Of a DNA stretch of 64,000 nucleotides, positions 1,228 to 49,350 are shown in pieces. Under the pieces are notes generated by a model that made no database searches, was not told the origin of the DNA, and was given only the letters and a program-made list of their open reading frames with translations. The position numbers and the translations under genes were made by a program. This DNA is from Allosalinactinospora lopnorensis (GTDB lineage Bacteria > Actinomycetota > Actinomycetes > Streptosporangiales > Streptosporangiaceae): NCBI RefSeq assembly GCF_000981225.1, contig NZ_LAJC01000001.1, forward strand, positions 124,001 through 188,000. The letters run 5' to 3'. Within the stretch, counting starts at the first letter, position 1. Each line of letters starts with the position of its first letter.

Positions 1228-2029
1228 GGTTCAACCTCTCCGTCTCTTCCCGGATCAGCTGCAGTGAGTCTTCGGGCGACAAAGCCACGGCGCGTAGATC
1301 ACTCAACAGCACCCGGAACTTTTGCACCTGGTCCGGATCGTCGATGATCCGCCCAGCGTACGCAGACTCCGCATACACGACATCTGGTGCCCCTGCGGAC
1401 GATAGCAGCATAAATGGGCCTATTAACCCGGGATGACACCAGGGTCGAACTACCTGAACATCGATGCGCTCCCTCTCAGCCAACCCTGCGACGTGTTCCA
1501 GTTGTTTGGTGAGCAGCTCGGGCCTTCCGTGGTGGTAGGTCACGACGCTCGCAGGGATGACCAGTCGGTACACCGGAGCGTGAGAATCCGCGAACCGCTG
1601 TGCGCGTACAAGTCTGGTCTTGACCGTTTCCTCTATTTCGTTGGGAGCAGCCCAAGGAGTCGTGGTCCGGGCCACCGCCCGGGCGTAGTCCTCGGTCTGG
1701 ATGAGGGCGGGGAACAGAACCGTATGCGTCTCCATGATCGAGGTGGCGCGGCGCTCCACTTCTTCCAGGTCGTCGAGCCAGACCGGTTCTCCGTCACCGG
1801 TCAGGGTCGCCCATAGCCGCTCTAGGCGTCCCTCTGCGCGTAGGACCCGGTCCAGGTCGGCGACCAACCGAAGGTCCGGCGTGCGCTTCCCGTTCTCGAC
1901 GTTTCCTATATGTCCGTGGCTGACTCCCACTTCTTTTGCGACTCGGGCTTGCGTGTATCGGGCTATGCGCCGCAGCCGACTCATCTCACGGCCGAAGCGC
2001 ACATTGATTTCCTGTTGCTGGTGACCCAT
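1220..2029 (-). CDS. XRE-family regulator with DUF5753 (Scr1/WhiJ-like)
   Basis: This 269-residue regulator has an N-terminal helix-turn-helix at about residues 15-70 (REMSRLRRIARYTQ...VGVSHGHIGNVENGKRTPD) and a C-terminal DUF5753 domain from about residue 90. The latter shows the typical segments LFPALIQTEDYAR and DVVYAES. Such proteins control development or act as antitoxin-like partners of DUF397 proteins. ATG at 2029 is preferred over an in-frame TTG at 2047. The 3' end overlaps the DUF397 start. The gene is visibly less GC-rich than its neighbours, which hints at lateral transfer. It is divergent from the microprotein/HATPase pair, so an operator is expected between 2030 and 2207. Confidence 0.85.
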   Translation of the reverse strand: MGHQQQEINVRFGREMSRLRRIARYTQARVAKEVGVSHGHIGNVENGKRTPDLRLVADLDRVLRAEGRLERLWATLTGDGEPVWLDDLEEVERRATSIMETHTVLFPALIQTEDYARAVARTTTPWAAPNEIEETVKTRLVRAQRFADSHAPVYRLVIPASVVTYHHGRPELLTKQLEHVAGLAERERIDVQVVRPWCHPGLIGPFMLLSSAGAPDVVYAESAYAGRIIDDPDQVQKFRVLLSDLRAVALSPEDSLQLIREETERLNHG

Positions 2030-15097: not shown

Positions 15098-15222
15098 CGG
15101 CGGCTCCTTCGGCCCCTCGGGGAACGCGGGCACCCCGTCCGACGCCCGCCCCGTACCGGGCCGTTCCACCATGCGCGCTTCCCGCGAGCGCCCTGACACG
15201 AACGGGTAAGGGCCCACGCTGG

Positions 15223-15295
15223 TACCCCCGAGCGGATTCGAACCGCCGTTACCGCCTTGAGAGGGCGGCGTCCTAGGCCACTAGACGACGGGGGC
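15223..15295 (-). tRNA. tRNA-Glu (CTC)
   Basis: The minus strand folds into a 73-nt cloverleaf from GCCCCCG to CGGGGGT plus a discriminator A. The anticodon stem CCGCC/GGCGG carries loop CTCTCAA, giving anticodon CTC. CCA is not encoded. An identical copy lies at 15433-15505. Confidence 0.95.
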
Positions 15296-15390
15296 CTGCG
15301 CAAACCGGGGCACGCCCTGCCGGGGGCCGGTTTCCCGCCGCCCCGGAGGAGTCGTGCGTCCCGGTACCGACCGGATCACTCCGATCGGCA

Positions 15391-15420
15391 GAAAAAGAGC
15401 CCCCACCGAACGTGGGAGCC
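15391..15420 (-). terminator. Rho-independent terminator between the two tRNA-Glu genes
   Basis: On the minus strand GGCTCCCAC-GTTCG-GTGGGGGCT is followed by TCTTTTTC, a rare clear U-run for this genome. It ends the transcript carrying tRNA-Gln and the upstream tRNA-Glu, so the tRNA-Glu at 15223 needs its own promoter or read-through. Confidence 0.8.
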
Positions 15421-15432
15421 TTTCCCAGTGCG

Positions 15433-15505
15433 TACCCCCGAGCGGATTCGAACCGCCGTTACCGCCTTGAGAGGGCGGCGTCCTAGGCCACTAGACGACG
15501 GGGGC
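15433..15505 (-). tRNA. tRNA-Glu (CTC), second copy
   Basis: This is a 73-nt cloverleaf identical to the copy at 15223-15295, with anticodon CTC in loop CTCTCAA and no encoded CCA. It lies between tRNA-Gln and the terminator on the same strand. Confidence 0.95.
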
Positions 15506-15567
15506 CTATGGCCGCTGGCTTTCGCGGCCGGGCTGGTTCGCGACAACGGTCCGAACCGGCGCCATCG

Positions 15568-15639
15568 CTGGGGTACCAGGACTCGAACCTAGACTAACTG
15601 AACCAGAATCAGTCGTGCTGCCGATTACACCATACCCCA
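15568..15639 (-). tRNA. tRNA-Gln (CTG)
   Basis: This 72-nt cloverleaf on the minus strand has acceptor TGGGGTA/TACCCCA and discriminator G. Anticodon stem ACTGA/TCAGT encloses loop TTCTGGT, anticodon CTG. In organisms with GatCAB, as here, this tRNA is charged with Glu by GluRS and then amidated. Confidence 0.95.
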
Positions 15640-34121: not shown

Positions 34122-35762
34122 TCAGGGCACCGGGTAGCCCTGCTGGAGCAGGCCGTAGCAGACCGCCTGCTCCAGCGCGATCCACGAGGCGTCGATGACG
34201 TTCTCCCCGACACCGACCGTGGTCCACTCCGAGCGGCCGTCGCTGAAGGTCACCAGGATGCGGGTGATGGCCGCGGTCCCCGAAGCGCCTTCGAGGATGC
34301 GGACCTTGTAGTCGGTGAGCTCCAGGCCGGCCAGCGCCGTGTACACGCCCTCCACCGCGCTGCGCAGCGCGCGGTCCAGCGCGTTGACCGGGCCGTTGCC
34401 CTCCGCGGTCGCTATCACGCGCTCGCCCTTGACGTGCAGCTTGACCGTCGCCTCGCTGACAGCGGTGCCGGCCGCCGGCGCGAGCGGGGCGGCGCCCTCG
34501 GAGACGCCAGGCGTCGCGGCACTTTCCGTTGCCGTCCGCTCCGCGATCACCCGCCACGACTCCGTCTCGAAGTAGCGCACCTTCCGGCCCAGCTCCTCCC
34601 GCAGCAGGAGCTCCAGCGAGGCGTCGGCCGCCTCGAAGCTGTACCCGGCCTGCTCCAGCGTCTTCACCCGCTCGACCACGCGGCCCAGCATCTCGCGGTC
34701 GCCGCCGAGGTCGAGCCCGAGCTCCTTGGCCTTGAGTTCGACGGAGGCCCGCCCGGCCATGTCGGAGACCAGCATCCGCATGTCATTGCCCACGAGAGTG
34801 GGGTCCATGTGCTGGTACAGGTCGGGGTCGACCTTGATCGCCGAGGCGTGCAGGCCCGCCTTGTGCGCGAACGCCGAGATCCCGACATAGGGCTGGTGGG
34901 TGGCCGGGGCGATGTTGACGAGCTCGGCGATGGCCAGGGAGACCCGCGTCATCTCCTGCAGGCAGCCGTCGGGCAGCACCGGGCGGCCGTGCTTGAGGGC
35001 GAGGGCGGGGACCACGGAGAAGAGGTTCGCGTTGCCCACCCGCTCGCCGTAGCCGTTGGCGGTGCACTGCACGTGGCTGACACCCGCGTCGACGGCGGCC
35101 AGCGTGTTGGCCACGGCGCAGCCGGTGTCGTCCTGGGCGTGGATGCCCAGCCTGGCCCCGGTGGCCTCCTGGACCTCCGTGACGACCCGGGTGATGTCGC
35201 TGGGCAGCATGCCGCCGTTCGTGTCGCACAGGACGACGACGTCGGTGCCCGCCTCCGCGGCGGTGCGCACCACCCGGACCGCGTAGTCGGGATCGTAGTG
35301 GTACCCGTCGAAGAAGTGCTCGCAGTCGAGGAACACCCGCTGCCCGCTGTCCCGCAGGTGGGCGACGGTGTCGGCGATCATGGCCAGGTTCTCGTCGAGG
35401 GTGGTGCGCAGGGCGCGCTCGACATGGCGGACGTCGCTCTTGGCCACCAGGGTGACGACCGGCGCCCCGGAGTCGCGCAAGGCGGCCACCTGAGGGTCGT
35501 CGGCGGCCTGCGCACCGGCCCGGCGGGTCGCGCCGAAGGCGGTGAGTTGCGCGTGTCTCAGCGGGAGCTCTCGTGAAGCCCGCTGGAAGAACTCCGTGTC
35601 CTTGGGGTTGGCTCCCGGCCAGCCGCCCTCGATGAACCCCACGCCGAACTCGTCGAGCAGCTTCGCGATCGCGAGCTTGTCGGCGACGGTGAGGTTGACG
35701 CCCTCACGCTGGGCGCCGTCGCGCAGGGTCGTGTCGAAGACGTGGAAACTGTCGTCTGGCAT
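34122..35762 (-). CDS. cimA: citramalate synthase
   Basis: CimA condenses pyruvate and acetyl-CoA to citramalate, giving a threonine-independent route to isoleucine. The 546-residue product has the DRE-TIM barrel: FDTTLRDGAQREGVNLT (metal-binding Asp), FIEGGWPGANPKD, DCEHFFDGYHYD, CDTNGGMLPSDI, GIHAQDDTGCAVANTL and QCTANGYGERVGNANL. The C-terminal regulatory LeuA domain begins near residue 430. ATG 35762 fits homologues (MPDDSFHVFDTTLRDG). A leader-peptide attenuator lies 53-136 bases upstream. Downstream isomerisation and oxidation would use LeuCD and LeuB from this window. Confidence 0.94.
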   Translation of the reverse strand: MPDDSFHVFDTTLRDGAQREGVNLTVADKLAIAKLLDEFGVGFIEGGWPGANPKDTEFFQRASRELPLRHAQLTAFGATRRAGAQAADDPQVAALRDSGAPVVTLVAKSDVRHVERALRTTLDENLAMIADTVAHLRDSGQRVFLDCEHFFDGYHYDPDYAVRVVRTAAEAGTDVVVLCDTNGGMLPSDITRVVTEVQEATGARLGIHAQDDTGCAVANTLAAVDAGVSHVQCTANGYGERVGNANLFSVVPALALKHGRPVLPDGCLQEMTRVSLAIAELVNIAPATHQPYVGISAFAHKAGLHASAIKVDPDLYQHMDPTLVGNDMRMLVSDMAGRASVELKAKELGLDLGGDREMLGRVVERVKTLEQAGYSFEAADASLELLLREELGRKVRYFETESWRVIAERTATESAATPGVSEGAAPLAPAAGTAVSEATVKLHVKGERVIATAEGNGPVNALDRALRSAVEGVYTALAGLELTDYKVRILEGASGTAAITRILVTFSDGRSEWTTVGVGENVIDASWIALEQAVCYGLLQQGYPVP

Positions 35763-35814
35763 GGGGAGCTCCCGGGTCGAACGCGTCGTGTGGTGATGGG
35801 GGCCTCGCCAGCCC

Positions 35815-35882
35815 AATAAAAAGACCTCTCGTGGACACGAGAGGTCGGCGCGCTGGCGAGGTCCGGTTTCAGCCAGCGCGCC
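35815..35882 (-). promoter_or_regulatory. transcription attenuator of cimA
   Basis: On the minus strand a perfect 11-bp hairpin, GGCGCGCTGGC with GCCAGCGCGCC (35847-35882), overlaps the leader peptide end. It is followed at once by a second perfect hairpin, GACCTCTCGTG-TC-CACGAGAGGTC (35823-35846), and TTTTTATT. GACCTC in the first loop can pair with GAGGTC of the terminator, and CCTCGCCAGC can pair with GCTGGCGAGG beyond it, giving an alternative fold. Confidence 0.75.
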
Positions 35883-35898
35883 TCACGATAATGATCAC
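35869..35898 (-). CDS. cimA leader peptide (VIIIVRRAG)
   Basis: A GTG at 35898 opens a nine-codon frame of Val-Ile-Ile-Ile-Val-Arg-Arg-Ala-Gly and stop. The three consecutive isoleucine codons, flanked by Val, are what an isoleucine-sensing attenuator needs. The frame could begin four codons earlier at GTG 35910. Its end overlaps the first arm of the hairpin, so stalling on Ile codons would change the fold. It resembles the ilvB leader at 49300-49350 (ILVLGRRAAS). Confidence 0.7.
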   Translation of the reverse strand: MIIIVRRAG

Positions 35899-36127
35899 CT
35901 GAGACGGCACGGGCCCCAGTATGCCACACGAGTCGCTGGGCCGGTGGAGGACCATGCGTTCCCCGGGCGGTCGCCCTCACCCGCGGCGGCCTTCGTGAAG
36001 TCAATGCCACCCGCGGAGGGGGCAAGCGGGATTAACTTCACGACCGTCTCCACCGCCCGGCAAGACTCCCTATTTTCCTCAGATTTTCCCTATTGTGTCC
36101 CTCGACAGAGAAGTTTAGAGTACTTTC

Positions 36128-47441: not shown

Positions 47442-49200
47442 CTAGTCCTCGTCGTCCCATTCGGGCGCCATGTCACGCGCGTACTGGATGTTGTCGTTGC
47501 TCACTCCGGGCCCCACCATCGGCCAGACCATGGCGTCGTGGTTGACGGAGAAGTCGATCACGACCGGGGCGTCGTTGATGGCCATGGCCTTCTCGATCGT
47601 GGCGTCGACGTCCTCGGGGCGCTCGCACCGCAGTCCGACACAACCGTACGCCTCCGAGAGCCGGACGAAGTCGGGGATGCGCACCTTCTCGTCCTTGGGC
47701 GCGGTCTGCAGGTCGGTGTTGGAGTACCGGCCGTCGTAGAACAGGGTCTGCCACTGCCGCACCATGCCCAGGTTCCCGTTGTTGACGACCGCGACCTTGA
47801 TGGGGATGTTCTCCACCGCGCAGGTCGCGAGCTCCTGGTTGGTCATCTGGAAGCAGCCGTCGCCGTCGATCGCCCAGACGGTCTGGCCGGGGCTGGCGAC
47901 CTGGGCTCCGAGCGCGGCGGGGACGGCGAACCCCATCGTCCCGAGGCCACCGGAGTTGATGAACGTCCCGGGCTTCTCGTACCCGATGAACTGGGAGGCC
48001 CACATCTGGTGCTGGCCGACCCCGGTGACGTAGGCGGCGTCCGGGCCAACGATCTCGCCCAGGCGCTTGATGACGTGCTGCGGGGACAGTCCGCCCTCGT
48101 GGCTCTCCTCGTACCCCAGCGGGTAGACGCTGCGCAGCCGCTCGATCTGGGCCCACCAGCCGGCGTAGTCGCCCTGGCGCCCGTTGGTCTGGTCGTTGCG
48201 GACGGCCACCACCAGGTCGGCGATGACCTCGCGGCAGTCACCGACGATCGGGACGTCGGCGTGCCGGTTCTTGGAGATCTCGGCCGGGTCGATGTCGGCG
48301 TGCACGATCTTGGCGTCGGGGGCGAAACTGTCGAGCTTGCCGGTGACGCGGTCGTCGAAGCGGGCGCCCAGCGCGACGATCAGGTCGGCCTTCTGCAGCG
48401 ATCCCACGGCGGCGACGGTCCCGTGCATGCCCGGCATCCCCAGGTGCTGCGGATGGCTGTCCGGGAAGACCCCGCGCGCCATCAGCGTGGTGACCACCGG
48501 AAGCCCGGTGAGCTCGGCCAGGATCCGCAGCTCCTGCGAGGCCCCGGCTTTGAACACACCGCCGCGACGTAGAGGACCGGCCGCTTGGCTTCGGCGATCA
48601 TCCGCGCCGCTTCGCGGACCTGCTTTCCGTGCGGCTTGGTCACGGGCCGGTAGCCGGGCATGTCCAGGCGCTGCGGCCAGGAGAAGGCGGTCTGCGCCTG
48701 CAGGGCGTCCTTGGCGATGTCGACCAGGACCGGCCCGGGCCGGCCGGTGGAGGCGACGTGGAACGCCTCCGCGATCGTCCGCGGGATCTGAGCGGCGTCC
48801 CGGACCAGGTAGTTGTGCTTGGTGATGGGCATCGTGATGCCGCAGATGTCGGCTTCCTGGAAGGCGTCGGTGCCGATCGCCGGGGAGGCCACCTGACCCG
48901 TGATGGCCACGACCGGAACGGAGTCCATATGCGCGTCGGCCAGCGGTGTGACGAGGTTGGTGGCCCCGGGTCCGCTGGTCGCGATGCAGACCCCGGGGCG
49001 GCCGGTGGCGTAGGCGTAGCTTCCGCCGCGTGGCCGGCGCCCTGCTCATGCCGCATGAGGATGTGGCGTACCCGGGCGGAGTCGAAAAGGGGGTCGTAGG
49101 CGGGGAGGATCGCCCCGCCGGGGATCCCGAACGCCACGTCGACGCCGACATGCTCCAGCGACCTGACGAGCGATTGGGCTCCGGTCATCTGCTCGGTCAT
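47442..49200 (-). CDS. ilvB: acetolactate synthase large subunit, interrupted by two single-base frameshifts
   Basis: IlvB is the ThDP- and FAD-dependent catalytic subunit. The 5' frame gives [35 protein letters not shown] and [12 protein letters not shown]. The middle frame gives [26 protein letters not shown]. The last frame gives [22 protein letters not shown] and the ThDP motif [19 protein letters not shown]. The joins are near 49020 (GAAGCTAC, where GAAGGCTAC gives [12 protein letters not shown]) and near 48565 (GTCGCGGCGGT, where GTCGGCGGCGGT gives YVGGGVFKAG). Each needs one added G, so these look like sequence errors in an essential gene. ATG 49200 or GTG 49203 is the start. Confidence 0.9.
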
Positions 49201-49246: not shown

Positions 49247-49281
49247 CAAAAAACCCCCCACCGCGATGCGGTTGAGGGGGG
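49247..49281 (-). terminator. attenuator terminator of ilvBNC
   Basis: On the minus strand CCCCCCTCAACCGCATCGCGGTGGGGGG folds into a stem with a small bulge and runs into TTTTTTGTT. It lies between the leader peptide and ilvB, so it ends transcription when branched-chain amino acids are plentiful. GGCGCGCGGC and GCTGCGCGCC upstream (49281-49316) can form the preceding hairpin. Confidence 0.8.
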
Positions 49282-49299
49282 CGCGCAGCAGAAACTCGG

Positions 49300-49350
49300 T
49301 CAGCTCGCCGCGCGCCGACCAAGTACGAGAATGTGGAAGTTGCTCTGCAC
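49300..49350 (-). CDS. ilvB leader peptide (ends HILVLGRRAAS)
   Basis: GTG 49350 opens a 16-residue frame MQSNFHILVLGRRAAS that contains Ile, Leu, Val and Leu codons in a row and ends at TGA 49300-49302, 19 bases before the terminator stem. This is the classic layout of transcription attenuation for ilv operons. The cimA leader (35869-35898) has a similar core. Confidence 0.8.
   Translation of the reverse strand: MQSNFHILVLGRRAAS

Follow-up and report, generated by a model that had tools for sequence, protein, structure and literature searches.

The window that we analysed, a stretch of 64,000 nucleotides from Allosalinactinospora lopnorensis, carries on its minus strand the gene cimA, which the initial annotation had named as citramalate synthase, an assignment upheld by the match to TIGR00977. 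A compact leader element precedes the gene and consists of a short open reading frame (ORF), a hairpin hereafter called H1 and a terminator. The features are the following:

34122..35762, minus strand: cimA, citramalate synthase, the putative regulated gene (TIGR00977, 617.5 bits against a cut-off of 450).
35773-35769, minus strand: GGGAG ahead of cimA.
35818..35822, minus strand: U tract of the terminator, T5 (sequence).
35823..35846, minus strand: terminator hairpin, GACCTCTCGT-GTCC-ACGAGAGGTC (fold; all cells paired in 39 sequences).
35847..35857, minus strand: 3' arm of H1, flush with the terminator (fold and covariation).
35871-35858, minus strand: loop of H1.
35872..35882, minus strand: 5' arm of H1, overlapping codons AGG CGC GCT GGC (fold and covariation).
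35887..35895, minus strand: three Ile codons, ATC ATT ATC, the putative sensor codons (sequence and codon counts).
35869..35910, minus strand: leader ORF GTG CCG TCT CAG GTG ATC ATT ATC GTG AGG CGC GCT GGC TGA, giving MPSQVIIIVRRAG and a stop (conserved frame, start and stop).
35918..35923, minus strand: -10-like hexamer CATACT, within the conserved context TGTGGCANACT (sequence and comparison with relatives).

The frame GTG ATC ATT ATC GTG AGG CGC GCT GGC TGA, from which the initial annotation started, is present at 35898-35869 of the minus strand, but its start is likely GTG 35910, four codons upstream; GTG 35898 falls in the middle of the ORF. The peptide is most likely MPSQVIIIVRRAG with its start at GTG 35910, because the frame is open upstream and relatives retain ATG or GTG at that place. 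The leader ORF thus comprises 13 codons, three of them for Ile, and ends inside H1. The end of CATACT lies 7 nt from GTG 35910, upstream of which no Shine-Dalgarno-like stretch is present, and these two features make it likely that the leader is translated in leaderless fashion from this codon; transcription is expected to start at or beside it. The 11-bp perfect hairpin announced over the end of the frame was recovered as H1 (35882-35872 with 35857-35847), its 5' arm overlapping the last codons, and the terminator begins at the very next base. That a second hairpin and T5 follow H1 directly was also correct, although the stem measures 10 bp and not 11 (35846-35837 with 35832-35823, minus strand, loop GTCC). 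The cimA start codon is situated 55 nt downstream of the element on the minus strand. The fold of the leader reaches -45.9 kcal/mol, compared with -27.5 +/- 3.5 in shuffled sequences (z -5.3), and none of 200 shuffles equalled it.

After the U tract, GCTGGCGAGG (35803-35812, minus strand) is perfectly complementary, over 10 nt, to 35852-35861 in H1. The leader could thereby act on the translation of cimA or the stability of its mRNA, through pairing of 35812-35803 with 35861-35852, an explanation that we consider very unlikely: perfect in the window and partial in Nocardiopsis-like relatives, the complement is missing from many other relatives and lies away from the ribosome-binding site, while the terminator and its U tract are conserved wherever the leader occurs.

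The conservation of the element was evaluated in the same family, where a search of 343 genomes gave cimA in 332, and on a comparison set of 190 regions upstream of cimA, drawn from this family and completed with named genomes, chiefly those of Nocardiopsis relatives and of Streptomyces. The leader ORF, H1 and the terminator were found in essentially all of these 190 regions. The leader peptides fall into several types, namely MPSQVIIIVRRAG in Nocardiopsis-like genomes, MFYGLLIIGRRAG in a large middle group, VTSGRIIIGRRVGT, VLSFAMIIGSRRAGPQ in Streptomyces and MQQWLIISRGVPATG in Yinghuangia, and most relatives carry the -10-like TGTGGCANACT 6-10 nt upstream of the leader start codon. Stop codons vary in kind (TGA, TAG, TAA) and in place while the frame is maintained, which favours a coding sequence over a purely structural RNA. 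The rare Ile codon ATT occurs in 161 of 162 distinct cimA leaders, as against 1 of the 168 Ile codons in eight genes of the window, and an Ile codon stands 11-14 nt upstream of H1. Another kind of regulatory RNA in the cimA leader, whether a T-box, a riboswitch or a protein-binding RNA, would have precedents in the phylum, since ileS T-boxes and a LEU element of leuA are described in actinobacteria (PMC1262725). This reading appears highly unlikely, as neither the T-box covariance model nor any family of Rfam 15 (gathering threshold) matched the window's cimA leader, and as the whole conserved transcript amounts to one short coding frame, preserved with its Ile codons, and two hairpins.

Covariation supports both H1 and the terminator. 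When the arms of H1 were located through neighbouring sequence anchors and compared, each of ten pairs was intact in 94-96 of 96 distinct non-Streptomyces sequences, with TA replacing CG and other exchanges, and nine of the ten were formed in the 66 Streptomyces sequences, which show one constant mismatch. In an alignment of 39 sequences, 98.7% of cells are paired. Changes on both sides affect seven pairs and amount to 53 cells, where shuffles yield 14.8 +/- 4.7 and slid structures no more than 2; the two top pairs of the terminator show compensatory changes. The H1 loop ranges from a few nucleotides to more than 120 nt, and H1 is always flush with the terminator. One group of genomes (L143, L125, L150, L115, L148) has an H1 loop exceeding 100 nt with additional inverted repeats, H1 and the terminator being intact.

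A covariance model, R1, was built from the leaders of the family and of Streptomyces and run on 118 genomes sampled across the class. It matched in 70 of these 118. Among the 92 genomes that bear cimA, 60 have a match no more than 500 nt upstream of the gene (median distance 66 nt); 45 of these 60 cimA-linked matches belong to 22 families absent from the training set. Inspection of 20 cimA upstream regions lacking a match showed the same design in at least seven, for example MTAVIIII and MTQFATIISGRVG, each followed by a stop; the remaining regions either have another gene directly ahead of cimA or show no visible leader. Approximately a quarter of the cimA genes in the class sample show no leader of this kind. 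In the wider class the stop usually comes one codon past the Ile pair and touches H1, as in MTYSLIIS, MALPLIIA, MSTQVIIT and MAQALIIG, all ending at this point. An Ile codon is found just upstream of H1 in all 48 class-sample cimA leaders inspected, with two or three consecutive ones in 40. In genome G438 (L248, minus strand from 1194), a second cimA-like leader, MFTPRIII and stop with both hairpins, is located away from cimA, and a small ACT-like ORF may come after it. The conservation over a class of the frame, the Ile codons, the rare ATT, the spacing and the hairpin covariation makes it extremely unlikely that an ordinary unregulated terminator and a hairpin happen to lie beside a chance ORF. 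The comparison of cimA upstream regions proposed in the initial annotation has turned out as it anticipated, the Ile codons, H1 and the terminator being kept in the family, in Streptomyces and in most of the class; the outcome named there as a refutation, a lack of Ile runs or of terminators in orthologous leaders, was tested for and did not arise. The reading of the cimA leader as an attenuator is supported by these sequence comparisons.

We consider it very probable that the cimA element is a ribosome-mediated transcription attenuator that senses charged tRNA-Ile, with H1 as the antiterminator, and we infer that termination ahead of cimA is controlled by isoleucine or by charged tRNA-Ile. 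Transcription would begin at or beside the leader start codon, and the ribosome would load at the 5' end with no need of a Shine-Dalgarno sequence. With ample isoleucine, the ribosome would pass ATC ATT ATC and reach the stop, covering the whole 5' arm of H1; with H1 blocked in this way, the terminator would form and transcription would end ahead of cimA. If charged tRNA-Ile is scarce, the ribosome would stall at the Ile codons, its leading edge not quite reaching the 5' arm of H1; the hairpin would then form and antiterminate the flush terminator, and cimA would be transcribed. The geometry of the leader is consistent with this scheme. A ribosome reaches approximately 15 nt from its P site, and an Ile codon 11-14 nt before H1 would thus bring the front of a stalled ribosome roughly to where H1 begins. 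Since a ribosome at the stop would cover the 5' arm of H1 and a stalled one would not, H1 would form when isoleucine is scarce, and its formation under shortage would have to favour read-through for the control to be sensible.

It can be asked how H1 would prevent termination, given that H1 and the terminator coexist in the free-energy folds of every representative folded. The contiguous extension of H1 into the junction or terminator is 0 bp in 118 sequences, 1 bp in 42 and 2 bp in 2, for a total of 162, and this overlap of only 0-2 bp argues against a classical, mutually exclusive antiterminator and for a block that is probably steric or kinetic. We propose that a helix lying flush against the foot of the terminator may be unable to pass into the RNA exit channel and would in this way hinder closure of the terminator. 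Two candidate pairings were set aside: extension of H1 into the 5' arm of the terminator (AGG with CCU), which has this same contiguous limit in the 162 sequences and whose bulged version was judged by hand to be too weak, and a pseudoknot joining GGAC of the H1 loop to GUCC of the terminator loop, since several relatives lack GGAC and the loop can be as short as a few nucleotides. The initial annotation had instead noted that GACCTC of the H1 loop (35863-35858) can pair with the terminator; on this reading, its pairing with GAGGTC in the 3' arm of the terminator would be the antiterminator. This pairing is indeed possible in the window, and at least 6 bp can form in 39 of 47 Nocardiopsis-like sequences, where shuffled loops give an expectation of 11.9, but it is not conserved beyond this group. 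It does not exceed chance in the other Streptosporangiales (12 of 49, expected 10.7) or in Streptomyces (24 of 66, expected 41.9), 23 of 48 class cimA leaders allow at most 4 bp of loop pairing, some H1 loops comprise only a few nucleotides, and the terminator's own 5' arm is both nearer and longer than the loop GACCTC. We consequently regard the loop as very unlikely to be the antiterminator and retain H1 in this role.

The same hairpin platform is common to the leaders of cimA, ilvB, leuS and leuA, and the codons fit each pathway: Ile before cimA, Leu, Val and Ile before ilvB, and Leu before leuS and leuA. In the window, R1 detects a sister element ahead of ilvB (49249..49350, minus strand; 32.5 bits, E 2.4e-8), composed of MQSNFHILVLGRRAAS and its stop (49350-49300), an H1-like hairpin and a terminator, and this leader also employs the rare codons ATT, GTA and CTT. 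The ilvB gene itself (47487-49188, minus strand) is spread over three successive frames, 49188-49018, 49021-48560 and 48563-47487, with two apparent frameshifts that correspond to draft errors or to a broken gene. In other genomes R1 retrieves ilvB leaders (ILVL, LVV, IVVV), leuS leaders (LLL) and some leuA leaders (LLL), the leuS and leuA downstream genes having been confirmed by NCBIfam; a Streptomyces ilvB leader (L273) retrieved in this way is identical to the published ilvL, MRTRILVLGKRVG. Beyond the class, the model gave five weak matches before ilvB-bearing loci and one before leuA; they show the same two hairpins, with peptides that end in LVVI, LVVVT or LLLT before the stop or that contain LVLI. 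A further weak match (L284, about 1480-1720, reverse strand, E 3.4e-4), in another class of the phylum, has a peptide ending in FVAIA and stop; the ORF downstream begins like isocitrate lyase, and the match may be due to chance. It can be hypothesised more tentatively, as a proposition that we find possible but somewhat doubtful, that the attenuator is modular and phylum-wide, the codons before H1 being swapped for specificity and a flush H1 stopping termination without common base pairs.

The comparison with known attenuators situates the cimA leader. As in the trp, ilvGMEDA and leu attenuators of E. coli, the position of the ribosome on a leader peptide would choose between hairpins before a terminator, and a hairpin, 1:2 in E. 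coli, spans the end of the ORF. The E. coli systems, however, possess a separate 2:3 antiterminator and have their sensor codons inside hairpin 1, whereas the cimA leader has no separate 2:3 antiterminator, carries its sensor codons ahead of H1 and would be leaderless. The closest likeness is with the actinobacterial ilvB attenuators, namely Streptomyces ilvL, MRTRILVLGKRVG (PMC8079986), C. glutamicum ilvBNC (PMC11857589, PMC10272879) and M. tuberculosis ilvB1, which share with it a short leaderless ORF, codons for branched-chain amino acids (BCAA) just before H1 and an antiterminator hairpin adjoining the terminator. In the cimA leaders, the ORF would be leaderless to judge from the -10 spacing, an Ile codon lies 11-14 nt before H1, inside the 8-15 nt typical of this group, and H1 is flush; they differ in having Ile codons alone, not mixtures of Leu, Val and Ile, and in their location before cimA. 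The hairpin corresponding to H1 has been assigned an antiterminator role in C. glutamicum ilvBNC (PMC11857589) and in M. tuberculosis ilvB1 (PMC13236596). Mutations of the terminator raise ilvB expression in the former (PMC11857589), and changing LVVI to AAAA in the leader abolishes induction in the latter (PMC13236596); for the ilvB leader of S. coelicolor, PMC1262725 cites a report that altered codons had no effect. Antiterminator and terminator share a 3-nt boundary in C. glutamicum, compared with 0-2 nt in the cimA leaders; this boundary is claimed to be special to C. glutamicum and does not define the whole group. In Streptomyces, leuS and leuA also have leaderless leaders (MRAVRLLLSEPR, MRFGLLLLSCRGEGL; PMC8079986), and R1 matches leuS and some leuA leaders; they carry Leu codons instead, and Streptomyces leuA has no obvious terminator (PMC8079986).

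The cimA leader presents two hallmarks of a leader-peptide attenuator, a short ORF with codons for the product of the pathway and an intrinsic terminator between this ORF and the gene. The initial annotation suspected that this control is new, and the freely accessible literature searched yielded no description of a leader peptide or of attenuation for cimA or citramalate synthase. Seliverstov et al (2005; PMC1262725) report having seen no conserved structures outside the tryptophan, cysteine, leucine/ilvB and ileS cases, and a list of eight S. lividans leaders includes none for cimA (PMC8079986). The cimA leader adds a new case to the known actinobacterial BCAA attenuators.

Elsewhere in the window, three consecutive tRNA genes lie at 15220-15639 (minus strand), two for tRNA-Glu (ctc) and one for tRNA-Gln (ctg). 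The same genome (G000) holds threonine-dehydratase-like genes at L202- and L201-type loci, whose best TIGR01127 score, 261.9 bits, falls below the cut-off of 378.75; they may provide a second route to 2-oxobutyrate.

A covariance model and a consensus are now available to annotate leaders of this kind, which Rfam 15 leaves unmatched in the window. The leaders of cimA, ilvB, leuS and leuA constitute a natural series of codon swaps, in which amino-acid specificity and the antitermination step are directly testable. We propose that isoleucine-specific control may act on the citramalate route, by which many actinobacteria, antibiotic producers included, enter isoleucine synthesis.
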